The translations under genes were made by a program, and so were the position numbers. Positions 44,860 to 51,053 of a DNA stretch of 51,053 nt are shown in pieces; position 1 is the stretch's first letter, and each line of letters opens with the position of its first letter. Source of the stretch: a virus; IMG/VR virus record IMGVR_UViG_3300032288_005455, positions 1 to 51,053 of that record, one strand, 5' to 3'. The notes beneath the pieces are model-generated. The model did no database searches. It worked only from the letters and a program-made list of their open reading frames with translations, and had not been told where the DNA came from.

Positions 44860-45062
44860 CAAAGGAAGAGATAGAAGCTATAGATAGAAAGAAATGTCTA
44901 TTGAAGGGCCAGATATCATACAAGATTGACGATGCTTTGGAATTTCCAGATTTGGAAAATAATTTTAAGCCGGAGAAGATCAAGAGGAAGGAGAAGGTTA
45001 AACCCGTGGTAGTAGATTTAAAAAAGAAACCAAAGAATAAAAGTAATCAATTATATGAGTGA
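44838..45062 (+). CDS. Small basic hypothetical protein
   Basis: The product has 74 residues. Its ATG lies within the primase gene in another frame (22-base overlap), and its stop overlaps the next ATG (ATGA type, 8 bases). An acidic N-terminal half (KEEIEAIDRKKCLLKG, DDALEFPDLENNF) is followed by a Lys-rich tail (KIKRKEKVKP, KKKPKNKSNQ). No family is recognised. Tight coupling between primase and UvsY-like genes suggests a replication accessory factor. Confidence 0.6.
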   Translation: MGHDFSLTKEEIEAIDRKKCLLKGQISYKIDDALEFPDLENNFKPEKIKRKEKVKPVVVDLKKKPKNKSNQLYE

Positions 45063-45498
45063 TCAGCAGGAAAATTTTGAGGATACATTTAACAGGGAGA
45101 GAACCGAATGGACAGAAAGAATCCGAGAGCTTTCCGTCAGAATGAAAAATATCAGGGAGATAGCTGAAGTTCAGGTTGATCTTTATTCAGATCGCCAGAA
45201 ATTACTAGAATATGCTTATAAACTAGGACAAATTGTATCGAGACAGAATGCTAAGTACAGATCAGATAAAAGAACCAAGATGGTTTATTATTCTGAAGAG
45301 CATAATGTTAGATACGGTTCTAATGAGAAAACGTCCCTCATAGAAGGGGATTTAAGCGATTTAAAAAAGAAAATAGATATAGTAGATAATCACGTAAGTT
45401 TTGTGAACGAAACAATAAAAACTGTGGATCACATGTTATATGGTATTAAGTCTAGAATATCGTTGGAGGAGTTTATGCGAGGAGGGGGAATAAAATAA
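45055..45498 (+). CDS. uvsY: UvsY-like recombination mediator
   Basis: The product has 147 residues (T4 UvsY has 137). It is almost all helical: LYSDRQKLLEYAYKLGQIVSRQNAK, then a KMVYYSEEHNVRYGSNEKT hinge, then DIVDNHVSFVNETIKTVDHM and a C-terminus GIKSRISLEEFMRGG. The order helix, YYSG-like hinge, KTxxIxxD, helix, IKSR matches UvsY. UvsY loads the UvsX recombinase on gp32-coated DNA. Adjacency to uvsW, as in T4, supports this. The call rests on pattern and neighbourhood; simple coiled-coil proteins can look similar. Confidence 0.62.
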   Translation: MSDQQENFEDTFNRERTEWTERIRELSVRMKNIREIAEVQVDLYSDRQKLLEYAYKLGQIVSRQNAKYRSDKRTKMVYYSEEHNVRYGSNEKTSLIEGDLSDLKKKIDIVDNHVSFVNETIKTVDHMLYGIKSRISLEEFMRGGGIK

Positions 45499-45505
45499 TC
45501 TATGG

Positions 45506-47032
45506 ATGCTAAAATTTATTGTATCAGAGGACTTACAATGGTTAATTCTTCAAGACTATGACGAAGAGGTAGATCGTAAACAACTCGAGATTTCGCTCAC
45601 GAGAAAAATACATAATTATTTTTTTCACCCGCTAGTTAAAAAGAAACACTGGGATGGAGCTATTTGCTTTGTTGATAAAAGAGGTCCATTGTGGAAAATT
45701 CCAGTGGGTCTATGGAGTGAAGTTTTCGATATTTGTGAGAAATATAAAATAGACGTAGAGATCTTAGGTCTAGAGTATATTATAGAGAATGAACTAACTT
45801 TAGAGGATTTTACCGAATGGTGTAATGATTTTTTCAAAGATAAAAAATTCAGTCCTAGAGACTATCAAATAGAAGCAGCATGGAAGATTGTTAAGTTCAG
45901 ATATTCCTGTTTAGAAATTGCAACCTCTTCTGGTAAAACCCTAATAGCTTTTATCGTTCTTTCTTACTTAAAGAAAGTAAAGGACATCAATAAATTTCTA
46001 ATGATTGTTCCTAATACCACTCTGATTATTCAAGGAGCAGAGGATTTTGAGGAATATGGTCTAAAAGAAGTTGAAAATTGTGATATTCAATTAATTCATG
46101 GGGGAAATAAGAACAAGATTTCATCTGGTCTAATGATTGGGACATATCAATCTCTGGTTAAACAAGATGATTCTTTTTTTGATGGGGTTGAAGCTATCTT
46201 TGTTGACGAATCACATCAGAGTCATTCTAAGTCAATTAAAGAGGTTATTTCTAAATGTAAAGACTCTAGATATCGATTTGGGCTTTCTGGAACCCTTACT
46301 AATAGAAATACTGCTGAGCATCTAACCATCCAGCAATATCTTGGTCCTTTGACCATGGAGATCAGTCCTAAGTTCCTGTTTGATAACAAGTACGCTACTC
46401 CTGTTTCGATTAAGGTGGTTAAAATGAATTGGCTCCAGGAGGATTATAAAGAAAAGCTATATCAACTAAGAACTAATAAACAAGACCTAGACGGAAATGA
46501 GATTTTCAATGTGGAGAGAAAGCTGGTAATTTCCTCTGATAAAAGATTAAACTATATTGTTGATTTCATCTCTAAGACCAGTAAAAACTCTCTGGTCCTT
46601 TTCCAGTCTGTCGGGGAGGGATACGGAAAAAGAATCTATGATTTATTAAGAGAGATCCAATCTGAAAAAGAAATCTACTACGTGGACGGTGACACTGATC
46701 CTAGTCAAAGAGATTTTTTCAAGACCAAGCTAGAAGAGGGAACCAATAAGATTTTAGTTGCTAGCTTTGGTACACTAAGTACCGGTGTGTCGGTTAAAAA
46801 TATTCACAATCTATTTCTAACTGAATCATACAAATCTGAGGTTCTTATCAAGCAAAGTCTTGGAAGGGGGATGAGATTGTATGAAGGAAAAGAAAAAGTC
46901 AATGTGATTGATTTTGTTGACGACTTTTCCTGGAATGGATCTGCTAACTATCTACTGAAGCATTCTGCCGAAAGAATAGAGATCTACAAGAGGGAAAAAT
47001 TCGACTATAAAATCTACGACGTGACTTTATAA
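45506..47032 (+). CDS. uvsW: UvsW-like DNA/RNA helicase (superfamily 2)
   Basis: The product has 508 residues (T4 UvsW has 502). The N-terminal substrate-binding domain has KKHWDGAICFVDKRG (about 48-65). The Q-motif-like FSPRDYQIEAAWKI precedes Walker A EIATSSGKTLIAF near residue 140, DESH (FVDESHQSHS) near 234, SGTLTN near 261, and motif VI QSLGRGMRL near 450. UvsW unwinds branched DNA and R-loops and helps switch from origin-dependent to recombination-dependent replication. It follows the UvsY-like gene by 7 bases and ends the replication cluster. Confidence 0.93.
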   Translation: MLKFIVSEDLQWLILQDYDEEVDRKQLEISLTRKIHNYFFHPLVKKKHWDGAICFVDKRGPLWKIPVGLWSEVFDICEKYKIDVEILGLEYIIENELTLEDFTEWCNDFFKDKKFSPRDYQIEAAWKIVKFRYSCLEIATSSGKTLIAFIVLSYLKKVKDINKFLMIVPNTTLIIQGAEDFEEYGLKEVENCDIQLIHGGNKNKISSGLMIGTYQSLVKQDDSFFDGVEAIFVDESHQSHSKSIKEVISKCKDSRYRFGLSGTLTNRNTAEHLTIQQYLGPLTMEISPKFLFDNKYATPVSIKVVKMNWLQEDYKEKLYQLRTNKQDLDGNEIFNVERKLVISSDKRLNYIVDFISKTSKNSLVLFQSVGEGYGKRIYDLLREIQSEKEIYYVDGDTDPSQRDFFKTKLEEGTNKILVASFGTLSTGVSVKNIHNLFLTESYKSEVLIKQSLGRGMRLYEGKEKVNVIDFVDDFSWNGSANYLLKHSAERIEIYKREKFDYKIYDVTL

Positions 47033-47069: not shown

Positions 47070-47723
47070 ATGAAACATATAGATTCCTTTAAGATTTTTG
47101 AGGCCAAGAAGAATCCCAATAGATTTTTTGATAGCTATACTGATTCTGACTATACCAGTGTTTCTGGATCAAATACTGCACCTGGATGGAAGGATTGGCT
47201 TTATAATATGTTTAAAAATCTAGAGGACAGATTCGAAAGATTTGACACATATTACCAGCAAAATATTGCGGTTAAGGATATTAACGGCAGACCAATCGAT
47301 ACTGGAATGGGGTGGCTGATAGGAACAGCGGGATCCCTTGCTGCTAACGTGGCTTCCAAGATATTTAAACCTGCTGGCTGGGGAAAGGTGATTAAGAAAG
47401 ATCCAGCAACCTCCGGGGCCGGAACCTCTGCTAGCGACATGACAATCAAGACTGAACATCAAAGATTAATGAATGATTCTTTTATGAAGAACGATCTTCC
47501 TAAGATCAAAAGCGATGATGATTTTAAAGAATATGTTTGGGATTACTATAAACACGCAGGAGTTAAACCAGGAATAAACAAAGAGGTTGACACAGGGGCA
47601 GCAACTATTGCTAATACATATTTAAATAGCAAAAGAGGGGTTTTACCAGCAGCTCCCTCAATCACAGCAGAAACACCAGTTTCTACTGGGATAAATCCAG
47701 CAAATATCCCGATGGGGAATTAA
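47070..47723 (+). CDS. Hypothetical protein, possible internal head protein with prohead-targeting N-terminus
   Basis: The product has 217 residues. The N-terminus MKHIDSFKIFEAKKNP resembles the capsid-targeting sequence of T4 internal proteins (MKTYQEFIAEA) and contains IFE-A, which fits the T4 prohead protease rule (hydrophobic-x-Glu before a small residue). The rest has WKDWLYNMFKNLEDRFERFDTYY, a Gly/Ala-rich hydrophobic stretch near 80-105 (GWLIGTAGSLAANVASKIF), and a Pro/Ala/Thr-rich C-terminus. It has its own late-type promoter. If the signal works, it would be packaged in the head and injected with DNA. This is inference from a short motif. Confidence 0.45.
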   Translation: MKHIDSFKIFEAKKNPNRFFDSYTDSDYTSVSGSNTAPGWKDWLYNMFKNLEDRFERFDTYYQQNIAVKDINGRPIDTGMGWLIGTAGSLAANVASKIFKPAGWGKVIKKDPATSGAGTSASDMTIKTEHQRLMNDSFMKNDLPKIKSDDDFKEYVWDYYKHAGVKPGINKEVDTGAATIANTYLNSKRGVLPAAPSITAETPVSTGINPANIPMGN

Positions 47724-48449: not shown

Positions 48450-50390
48450 ATGTCAGGGATAAAACATTTAAGTGAGATTTATAAGAAGCAGGGAGTTGAA
48501 TTCCTGAATGATCTTTTTAGTAAGGAAGTTACTGTATCTGAAAAGTTAAACGGAATGTCTTTCTCCTTTGAAAGAAATCCTTTTGATGGTACAATATATT
48601 TTTATAAGAGGGATCAGAATAATCCTATTTCCAAGATCGATAGGGTTTTGATGAATTATTATGATGAGCCCATTTCTTACATAAAAAATCTTCCTGAAAA
48701 TATTCTAAACGAAATTCCAAGCGGATGGAGATTTGGAATGGAATTTTTTATCAATAGCAGTCCAGTTGTTCTTTCGTATCAGAGGATGCCAAAGAACAGT
48801 TTAGTTTTAACTCATATCATAGTTAAGAATCAATTCGGAGACGTAGAAAGAACTATTGTTAATAGGGAAGAATTAGATTACTGGGCAGATCTTATTGGAG
48901 TTGAAAAATCCCCGATTATTTTTCAGGGCAAGTTATCAGATGAACAAAAAGTTGCTGTCAATGATTTTATTAATTCGCCAAACGATGTTCTTAAAAAGAG
49001 CCACGGGACAGAGAGCTTTGCTAAATATTTAATAACAGTTTTAAATCCTGAATTAGATAAAAGCTTCCTCCACGATTCTTTAGAAGAGCCCATCGAAGGA
49101 GTAGTTTTCAGATTTGGACCTTTAGATGGTGCTGGTGAATCTTTTACCGCCAAAATTTTAGATCCTATTTTTTCTGATATCACTAAACAAAATAATCTTA
49201 AGAAAACTAGCTATTTTCCAAACGATATTTACGGGATTACCATTTTAGAGGTGATGAACTTCATTCTAGATGAAGGAATAGATTCTTTTGATTATACTGG
49301 TGAAGATCCTAATGACAAATACATTTCATACATCTGTTCAGTTTTTAATTCTTTCATAGAAAAAAACGGAGAAAAATATTTGGGCTTGGACTTTCAAGAG
49401 CCTGACTATTTAAAGCAAACTGAAAATGATATTAATCTGGAATTAATCAGTGATGATAAAACTAGGGAATTACTTAGTGAAGATGAGAGCTACCAATCTC
49501 TTTTTAGACTTATTCTTTCTGCATTTAGAAAACTGAAAAAGAAGCCTGGTGGATTCTTTACACAAGGAGCTGTTGAACAGTTTAATATTCTAGTTAGAGA
49601 AATTTCAGAATACCTAAATAGAAAGAACATCGTAGTGGAATCTATGATTCCTACTTTCGATCAATTTAGGAAAGAAAAGAAAGTATTTGTACCTCAAGAG
49701 GAAGTCGAGTCTGATGACGAGGAAGAAGTAGAGGCAGAGGTAGAGGAAGTTCCTGCTGCTCCTGAGGAAGAAGAAAAGATTGAAGACTTTGAGGAGATTG
49801 AAGTTAGCCCAGAAAACGAGGTTGATCCTGAGATAGTTGATAGAATTAAATCCATTCTAAACACTGATCACCAAAAGCAAATTCCAAGAGAAACCGGGAA
49901 TGATGTTAATATTGTGATTGGTAAATTTCATCCTTTTAATAATGGACATCTTAAACTAATAAAGAAAGCAAATCAGCATAACGGACTTCCTGTTTGTGTG
50001 TTTGTAACTAAACCTAAAAGAGAAATTATAGATCAGGAAACTGTAAAGAAAATGATGCACCTGGTTGCTGATGAATTGTCCGGGATAATTTCTTCCGTTA
50101 ATTATGTAGATGATGATCTTCTAGCAACTGCTTTGGACAATTTGGATAAATCATTAATTCCTAAAACATTAACTGTAGGTAAGAAAAGACTAGATAACTA
50201 TTTACTTCAATCTAGATCGCTTAAAAGAAAGGACAGAGTTCCAGAGGACTTCAGCGTGCAAGCTGCTCCTGAATGGATATCATCTACTATAGTAAATAAC
50301 TCCTTAAAAGAGAAGAATTACATAGATTTTAAAAAGCACGTTCCAAAATCTATTCATTCCCTTTGGGAAGAGATCTCCCGTAAATTTTAG
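48450..50390 (+). CDS. Fusion of polynucleotide ligase-type adenylyltransferase and HxGH nucleotidyltransferase (NMNAT-like)
   Basis: The product has 646 residues. The N-terminal half has nucleotidyltransferase motifs of RNA/DNA ligases: I at K32 (EKLNGMSFSFE), III-like WRFGMEFF near 93-100, IV EGVVFRF near 216-222, and V FTAKILDP near 231-238. Residues about 417-466 are a very acidic linker. The C-terminal domain begins with VNIVIGKFHPFNNGHLKLI (about 486) and ends with ISSTIVNNSL (about 610), the two landmarks of cytidylyltransferase/NMN-adenylyltransferase folds. Both differ from the classical form: (H/T)xGH is NNGH, and the Arg of ISSTxxR is Asn. One polypeptide may thus link nucleic-acid sealing with NAD-type nucleotide chemistry, or the second half may be a binding domain. 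Confidence 0.75.
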   Translation: MSGIKHLSEIYKKQGVEFLNDLFSKEVTVSEKLNGMSFSFERNPFDGTIYFYKRDQNNPISKIDRVLMNYYDEPISYIKNLPENILNEIPSGWRFGMEFFINSSPVVLSYQRMPKNSLVLTHIIVKNQFGDVERTIVNREELDYWADLIGVEKSPIIFQGKLSDEQKVAVNDFINSPNDVLKKSHGTESFAKYLITVLNPELDKSFLHDSLEEPIEGVVFRFGPLDGAGESFTAKILDPIFSDITKQNNLKKTSYFPNDIYGITILEVMNFILDEGIDSFDYTGEDPNDKYISYICSVFNSFIEKNGEKYLGLDFQEPDYLKQTENDINLELISDDKTRELLSEDESYQSLFRLILSAFRKLKKKPGGFFTQGAVEQFNILVREISEYLNRKNIVVESMIPTFDQFRKEKKVFVPQEEVESDDEEEVEAEVEEVPAAPEEEEKIEDFEEIEVSPENEVDPEIVDRIKSILNTDHQKQIPRETGNDVNIVIGKFHPFNNGHLKLIKKANQHNGLPVCVFVTKPKREIIDQETVKKMMHLVADELSGIISSVNYVDDDLLATALDNLDKSLIPKTLTVGKKRLDNYLLQSRSLKRKDRVPEDFSVQAAPEWISSTIVNNSLKEKNYIDFKKHVPKSIHSLWEEISRKF

Positions 50391-50462: not shown

Positions 50463-51053
50463 ATGTCTAAAATATCAAATTGGTCCCAATTTAAAAATTC
50501 CAATCCGGTTCTAGAAAACACATCAGACATTAGTAGCAGAGCATTTAAAAAGATGCAATTCTGTAGAATGCAGGTTGTAAAAAACAATCCATTTTTTGGC
50601 CATTTGGCTATGAAGCTTGTTTTCCAGGAAAGACTTGATCTTCCATATAAAACAATGGCTACTGATGGTAATAATCTTTATTACGATCCTAATTTTGCTT
50701 TAGAGAAAACCGGTCCTGAAATTGAGTGGGTTATTATCCATGAAGTAATGCACTGTGTTCTTTTTCACTTTGCTAGAAAGATGCCAGACCCTCGCGTTTG
50801 GAATGCTGCTTGTGATTATGCACTTAATGCTTTAATAGATCCTAGCAATCCTGCAAACAGAGAACAAAGTTCAAAATTAGGAAAAATGGTTGAGGGAGCT
50901 TTAAGAGATCCTAAGTTTGACGGAATGAGAGCAGAAGACATCTATCAATTTTTAATCGAAAATGACGTTCAGTTACCCCCTGATGAGGGATGGAACTATG
51001 GCGGTGTATTACCTCCGGTTCCCCCTAAAAAAGGCGGTGGGGGAGGAACATCA
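50463..51053 (+). CDS. DUF2201-type putative metallopeptidase, 3'-truncated by window edge
   Basis: The frame is open from ATG 50463 to the window end; 197 residues are visible. Residues about 82-108 include EIEWVIIHEVMHCVLFHFAR, a zincin-type HExxH motif. It is followed by WNAACDYALNALI, typical of the N-terminal domain of VWA-like metallopeptidases (DUF2201). In cellular genomes these are often next to MoxR-type ATPases; the downstream neighbour here is out of view. The visible end is Pro/Gly-rich (LPPVPPKKGGGGG), a probable linker to a VWA-like domain. Its own late-type promoter suggests late expression. A role in protein processing is inferred. Confidence 0.78.
   Translation, partial: MSKISNWSQFKNSNPVLENTSDISSRAFKKMQFCRMQVVKNNPFFGHLAMKLVFQERLDLPYKTMATDGNNLYYDPNFALEKTGPEIEWVIIHEVMHCVLFHFARKMPDPRVWNAACDYALNALIDPSNPANREQSSKLGKMVEGALRDPKFDGMRAEDIYQFLIENDVQLPPDEGWNYGGVLPPVPPKKGGGGGTS

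Follow-up and report, generated by a model that had tools for sequence, protein, structure and literature searches.

The window, a 51,053-nucleotide stretch of viral DNA, encodes a 646-aa protein in which a predicted Rnl2-type RNA ligase half is joined through an acidic linker to a NadM/NMNAT-like nucleotidyltransferase half of the HIGH superfamily. This fusion of RNA ligase and HIGH nucleotidyltransferase is genuine, old and widespread; both enzyme types were already known. Our main explanation, to which we give about an even chance, is a two-headed RNA ligase and NMNAT of huge T4-related phages. With AMP accepted from ATP at Lys32, the N-terminal half would activate RNA ends that bear a 5'-phosphate and seal them, while the C-terminal half, by descent, would convert NMN and ATP to NAD+ and PPi and, in relatives, supply the last step of NAD+ salvage alongside a phage NAMPT. 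A single protein would counter two outcomes of anti-phage defence, broken RNA and drained NAD+, and the fusion may help huge phages survive RNA-cutting or NAD-draining defences. We infer both enzymatic activities and the counter-defence purpose from the folds, the sites and the company of the gene. If the sites predict function, one phage protein deals with two common results of bacterial immunity, RNA cleavage and loss of NAD+, which tend to be treated as separate phage systems; given the age of the fusion and its wide occurrence among huge phages, the strategy would then be general and no mere curiosity. Half-degenerate natural variants show which half each lineage can spare, and the canonical members are testable enzymes.

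Architecture and distribution of the fusion

The open reading frame starts with ATG and contains no internal stops. Its Pfam matches are weak (RNA_ligase, E 5e-5; CTP_transf_like, E 2e-3), and the Pfam and NCBIfam matches span residues 25-221 for the RNA ligase and 488-541 for the cytidylyltransferase-like domain; NCBIfam TIGR00125 scores above its cut-off (28.0 bits against 27.7). These library signals for the two halves are low-scoring, yet independent of each other. The features of the gene are as follows.

48450..50390, + strand: fusion gene, Rnl2-type RNA ligase half, acidic linker and NadM/NMNAT-like HIGH nucleotidyltransferase half, 646 aa (ORF, motifs, profile matches, Foldseek)
48450..49634, + strand: ligase half, residues 1-395, predicted adenylyltransferase core and C-terminal helical region (AlphaFold pLDDT 84.5; Foldseek best match T4 Rnl2 2hvr, E 3.9e-8)
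48540..48557, + strand: ligase motif I, EKLNGM, residues 31-36, predicted nucleophile K32 (Lys in 76/80 members; aligns with Rnl2 K35)
48729..48749, + strand: ligase motif III, RFGMEFF, residues 94-100, E98 (Glu in 78/80; aligns with Rnl2 E99)
49092..49115, + strand: ligase motif IV, IEGVVFRF, residues 215-222, E216 (Glu in 78/80; aligns with Rnl2 E204)
49146..49166, + strand: ligase motif V, TAKILDP, residues 233-239, K235 (Lys in 80/80; aligns with Rnl2 K225)
49650..49673, + strand: F-x-x-F-type motif in the linker, PTFDQFRK at residues 401-408, which resembles the T4 capsid targeting peptide (conservation)
49686..49889, + strand: acidic linker, residues 413-480, 40% Asp/Glu (composition)
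49860..50387, + strand: HIGH nucleotidyltransferase half, residues 471-646 (pLDDT 92.6; Foldseek PPAT/NadD/NadM; profile match 1f9a)
49920..49949, + strand: GKFHPFNNGH at residues 491-500, the HxGH site with Asn497 for the first His (63/80 family members have His and 12/80 have Asn)
50274..50303, + strand: WISSTIVNNS at residues 609-618, the ISSTxxR site with Asn616 for the Arg (66/80 family members have Arg)

An earlier note on this DNA had recognized ligase motifs I, III, IV and V in the N-terminal half and both landmarks of an HxGH nucleotidyltransferase in the C-terminal half. All of them are present, and structure prediction agrees with the assignment, placing the N-terminal half with Rnl2 and the C-terminal half with PPAT/NadD/NadM.

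A single-sequence scan of IMG/VR returned eight loci with the whole fusion (61-99% identity), and in a 462-kb phage the fusion is matched in two pieces with 35% identity. The profile scan of IMG/VR gave 296 ligase-half relatives, 80 of which were kept; complete ORFs of 627-871 aa are found in 78, and in all 78 the nucleotidyltransferase signature follows the ligase half, the other two (L077 and L093) being interrupted by contig ends. LR756500 carries the two halves in the same order, and UniProt A0A6J5NWC5 (623 aa, uncultured Caudovirales phage, named cytidyltransferase-like) includes the ligase half too. That two genes had been joined by sequencing or assembly, which the same note allowed for, is refuted by this agreement between independent contigs, and we give the artefact practically no weight. 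A near-DNA search of INPHARED with the window returned no match; the ligase-profile search of genome contigs found no relative and hence no host is inferred.

The earlier note knew of no such fusion as a described system, and as far as we could check it is absent from described systems: in the parts covered by a term search, the surveys of phage NAD and RNA-repair enzymes do not mention a ligase-NMNAT fusion (PMC9503650; PMC7824862). The NMNAT fusions surveyed in these parts are with Nudix and kinase domains, and the Rnl2 fusion is with HNH (PMC9503650; PMC7824862).

Active sites of the two halves

The best PDB matches of the ligase half in Foldseek are the T4 Rnl2 structures 2hvr, 2hvq and 1s68, followed by TbREL1. 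Since the TM-scores are modest (about 0.3-0.36 by query length), the assignment relies on the E-value, the motifs and a collinear alignment rather than on close superposition; on these grounds, an Rnl2-type nucleotidyltransferase-ligase fold is highly probable. The alignment with T4 Rnl2 is collinear through the nucleophile, motif III and beyond, although the E-value was not significant when hhalign compared the ligase family with Rnl2 as a lone sequence. A comparison of the ligase-half profile with PDB sequences likewise returned nothing significant.

In the window protein, motif I reads SEKLNG, with K32-x-x-G35 in the KxxG form of the nucleophile, and this copy is possibly ligase-competent. 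Beyond what the earlier note had described, the linker contains a conserved F-x-x-F motif (see below), and the second Lys of motif V (Rnl2 K227) is replaced, by Leu237 in the window and by Leu, Val or Ile in 80/80 members, so that the two-Lys motif V by which an Rnl2-type RNA ligase is recognized occurs in none of them. Similarly, the Phe-Asp of Rnl2 motif IIIa is Leu-Thr/Ser in the sequences aligned. In Rnl2, mutational work has shown the second motif V Lys and the motif IIIa residues to be essential. Most of the records examined also carry one or more stand-alone RNA ligases, and for this reason the fusion ligase may be redundant or non-sealing. For RNA sealing by the ligase half of the window protein, we consider the chances evenly balanced.

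For the C-terminal half, Foldseek returned PPAT, NadD and NadM structures (E 4e-8 to 1e-6, probability 1.00), and a fold of the HIGH superfamily is virtually certain from the model. The single best structural matches are PPATs, not NMNATs, and the nearest phage families in PHROG are named cytidyltransferase. Both observations would fit a protein of RNA repair only, in which the HIGH domain acts on RNA ends or on some other small molecule (CoA precursor, cytidylyl transfer) and NAD plays no part. We regard this as quite unlikely, as sequence profiles put archaeal and NadM/NadR NMNATs first: the nearest profile matches are the archaeal NMNATs 1f9a (E 6.4e-7) and 1ej2 (E 6.8e-6), and among 24 members, 21 match the NMNAT model PRK01153 and 20 the archaeal NMNAT model TIGR01527, in each case below the curated full-length cut-offs. 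Most likely, the C-terminal half is a NadM-type NMNAT by descent.

The earlier note was correct that Asn takes the place of the first His of HxGH and of the Arg of ISSTxxR. Among the 80 full-length rows, which include the window and L009 and in which near-identical rows are counted separately, so that the counts overstate independence, the first His is kept in 63, the second His in 75 and the Arg in 66; most family members have canonical sites in both halves. As His and Arg prevail among the relatives, the Asn substitutions are a derived feature of one lineage. In the ligase-half tree, the window falls in an 11-row group (96/84 support), and 10 of the 11 lack the full HxGH. The suggestion that the chemistry may differ thus holds insofar as the NMNAT site of the window is probably crippled or altered, but the change is best understood as decay of the site within a single lineage. 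The window copy has neither the first His (or Thr) of HxGH nor the Arg of ISSTxxR that mark an NMNAT. With these residues missing, the adenylyltransferase activity of the C-terminal half in the window's clade is doubtful and probably weak, altered or none. Judged from the sites, NMNAT activity is rather probable in canonical family members and unlikely in the window protein.

Loss of sites is not confined to one half. The ligase Lys is missing in L009, L024-L026 and the 634-735-kb phages; L090-L092 and the window's clade have lost the HxGH site. The 634-735-kb phages (L010-L013; four distinct proteins, LR756501 and LR756503 being equal in length and match) encode the ligase half alone, with Asp or Asn for the nucleophile, apparently a dead ligase retained for another role. 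Even in these nucleophile-less versions W93, F95, N116 and LNP198-200 are invariant. Such a pattern, with several lineages lacking the ligase Lys or HxGH/ISSTxxR, could be expected of a capsid-core, structural or binding protein made from two exapted nucleotidyltransferase folds, in which the scaffold and a binding surface are kept and the active sites are dispensable by lineage. However, most members retain ligase motifs I, III and IV together with HxGH and ISSTxxR, which drift alone would not achieve, and we consider the exapted protein rather unlikely.

The physical fusion itself, and nothing else, would favour a coupling of the halves, in which NAD+ from one is used by the other (an NAD-dependent ligase step) or the ligase acts on NAD-capped RNA. 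This is very improbable: the ligase half resembles ATP-dependent RNA ligases, the adenylation domain of an NAD-dependent ligase (1b04) is matched by Foldseek only at E 0.25, and L010-L013 carry the ligase half without the NMNAT half. The two-headed enzyme remains our preferred reading.

Gene neighbourhood, probable NAD+ synthesis and capsid-targeting-like peptides

Across 72 loci, the usual gene order is SSB, primase-like, UvsY, UvsW, one or two small genes, the fusion and a 179-aa gene. The small genes include a Pol-beta-type nucleotidyltransferase in 61 of the 72 loci, with the GS...DxD signature in 61/61, and this type of gene is a partner expected in RNA repair (PMC7824862). In most loci it adjoins the fusion on the upstream side or is separated from it by a single gene (L046:5060-5977 and 60 homologues). 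The gene had no match to Pfam or PHROG, RlaP PF10127 did not detect it, and a PDB comparison with its profile gave no significant match; we therefore call it Pol-beta-like by signature only, and it is a possible RNA-repair partner. Its frequency would also suit a function in RNA repair only. The window has a different set of genes between UvsW and the fusion, with no Pol-beta-type gene there:

45055-45498, + strand: UvsY-like mediator (PHROG match; synteny across loci)
45506-47032, + strand: UvsW-like helicase (PHROG match; synteny across loci)
47070..47723, + strand: neighbour ORF, 217 aa, capsid-targeting-like N-terminus MKHIDSFKIFEAKK (motif in 5/5 distinct family N-termini)

Downstream of the fusion, the window's clade encodes a DUF2201_N metallopeptidase-like gene, a vWA-like gene and a MoxR-type ATPase (window 50463-51053; L001:10014-13377), the last with a capsid-targeting-like N-terminus. 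Elsewhere, the 179-aa gene is apparently joined to the C-terminus of the fusion, giving three-part proteins (L040:6001-8601, L082:6001-8613, L079), and the UvsW gene is in two parts, separated by an ORF of 270-289 aa that belongs to a single family, cluster 33 (L053:2703-3539, L056, L026, L082), possibly a homing endonuclease element.

A NAMPT family match (PF04095) is present in five of the six IMG/VR records of at least 340 kb and in a 250-kb record (G007). Among the 16 records first tested, nine gave a PF04095 match, that of LR745206 being weak; the match in LR756500 (W01) was rejected as NAMPT because it is PncB-like, and that in LR756501 (W03; 391 aa) was discounted since it looks PncB-like too. 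The NCBIfam NAMPT check was applied to G006 and G007; the 523-aa ORF of L098 (G007) scores above the PRK09198 cut-off and matches solved NAMPTs at E 5e-163. As G001/G002 and G003/G004 are close pairs, the independent NAMPT cases number about four. Neither G005 (348 kb) nor any record of the window's clade, these last being fragments, yielded a NAMPT, and no NAD genes were seen adjoining the fusion.

In G001 and G002 the fusion is the sole PF01467 match, and the presence of NAMPT without another NMNAT in these two records argues against a function in RNA repair only; an extra short PF01467 match in G004 proved to be RfaE/TagD-like on checking. A search for Prs/Adps (PF13793) in G001-G004 and G007 found none; the NARP1 route is thus not indicated in these records, and an NMNAT would be needed, as the canonical NAD+ salvage route requires one (PMC12774641). 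NadV is reported from every surveyed phage that has NadM (PMC9503650). As a consumer of NAD+, an NAD-dependent DNA ligase was considered and rejected, PF01653 being present in only 3/16 records. With NAMPT in several records and the fusion C-terminal half as the sole such nucleotidyltransferase in two, NAD+ synthesis is the likeliest family-level job. The link to NAD made in the earlier note is thus supported for the family and is weakened for the window by the condition of its NMNAT site; we favour NAD+ salvage for canonical members and doubt it for the window protein.

The linker is acidic, as had been noted, but it is more than a spacer, since it holds an invariant F-x-x-F motif. The form F..[FY][KRIQ] occurs in 80/80 full-length members, and in 27/27 representatives compared with 2.0 in shuffled linkers. 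In the families around the fusion, h-x-x-F-x-x-F is found at 34/39, 38/41, 5/5 and 41/44 distinct N-termini, against 0/46 for UvsW, 1/50 for UvsY, 0/48 for the primase-like family and 1/15 for SSB. The T4 internal proteins IPII and IPIII start with MKTYQEFIAEA, which fits this pattern, and T4 internal proteins are packaged via such a capsid-targeting sequence (PMC3012670). The N-terminal and linker patterns were written after examples had been viewed, and the shuffles measure enrichment of a chosen pattern rather than test a prior hypothesis; the contrast between families is less exposed to this choice.

The stricter start h-x-x-[FY]-x-x-[FY]-x-x(x)-[ED] occurs in 42/467 N-termini of G001, compared with 6.0 (SD 2.4) after shuffling, and in 8/228 of G010, from the window's clade, compared with 2.5 (SD 1.7), a weak enrichment. 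As the signal is strong in G001 and weak in G010, we keep packaging out of our high-confidence main claim. Among the G001 proteins (L109-L128) that begin in this way are an RNase T exonuclease, a CHAP endolysin, a RimK ATP-grasp protein and a MoxR ATPase, and the 42 ORFs possibly form a large set of capsid cargo. A T4-type S77 prohead protease (PF03420) is present in 11/11 records. It is fused to a scaffold-like region (L119:16799-18760 in G001; L142:1872-3950 in G010; L131, L132), which in G001 and G010 has at least 11-12 tandem 14-residue repeats of the NLDKNISYSEYLAE type, ending in YSEYLAE. The repeats resemble the T4 capsid targeting peptide, and the protein is possibly a combined protease and scaffold in which they bind or mimic cargo signals.

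The linker motif PTFDQFRK is internal and lacks a cleavage-type Glu, and the N-terminus of the fusion is its ligase half, not a capsid targeting sequence. Nevertheless, the N-termini of the neighbours, together with the invariant related motif in the linker, make it plausible that the fusion is packaged in the capsid through this motif, as its neighbours appear to be; we hold this tentatively, somewhat below an even chance. The same two observations would also suit the exapted capsid-core protein considered above. Unlikely, too, is a reading in which the virion delivers the fusion as a dual counter-defence enzyme: packed in the capsid core via the internal motif, alongside the Pol-beta-type nucleotidyltransferase and other cargo, it would enter with the genome, seal cut RNA and rebuild NAD+ before phage gene expression.

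Comparison with known systems

A related UniProt entry is A0A6J5NWC5, for which no described function was found; its model matches the ligase half of the window over 399 columns (TM 0.85, 32% identity), and its name, assigned automatically, points to the same C-terminal half. With T4 Rnl2 (gp24.1) the ligase half shares the predicted fold, the nucleophile Lys, the Glu of motifs III and IV, the first motif V Lys and a collinear alignment. It differs in having Leu, Val or Ile for the second motif V Lys, Leu-Thr/Ser for the Phe-Asp of motif IIIa and Asp or Asn for His37 of Rnl2, and the fusion adds the HIGH domain.

Compared with NadM-type NMNATs (archaeal 1f9a/1ej2; NadM with Nudix; NadR with kinase), the C-terminal half has the same predicted HIGH fold, is nearest to them by sequence profile and, in canonical members, has the GRFQPFHxGH and SGTxVR sites. 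In contrast, the fusion partner is an RNA ligase rather than a Nudix or kinase domain, and in the window copy two residues, the first HxGH His and the ISSTxxR Arg, are missing. As in phage salvage by NadV/NAMPT and NMNAT, several fusion genomes contain a NAMPT gene, without Prs/Adps in G001-G004 and G007, whereas here the NMNAT is part of the fusion and does not adjoin NAMPT. Finally, the families flanking the fusion begin with a peptide similar to that of T4 IPII/IPIII, and a T4-type S77 prohead protease is present; the fusion differs from these internal proteins in that its motif is internal and has no cleavage-type Glu.
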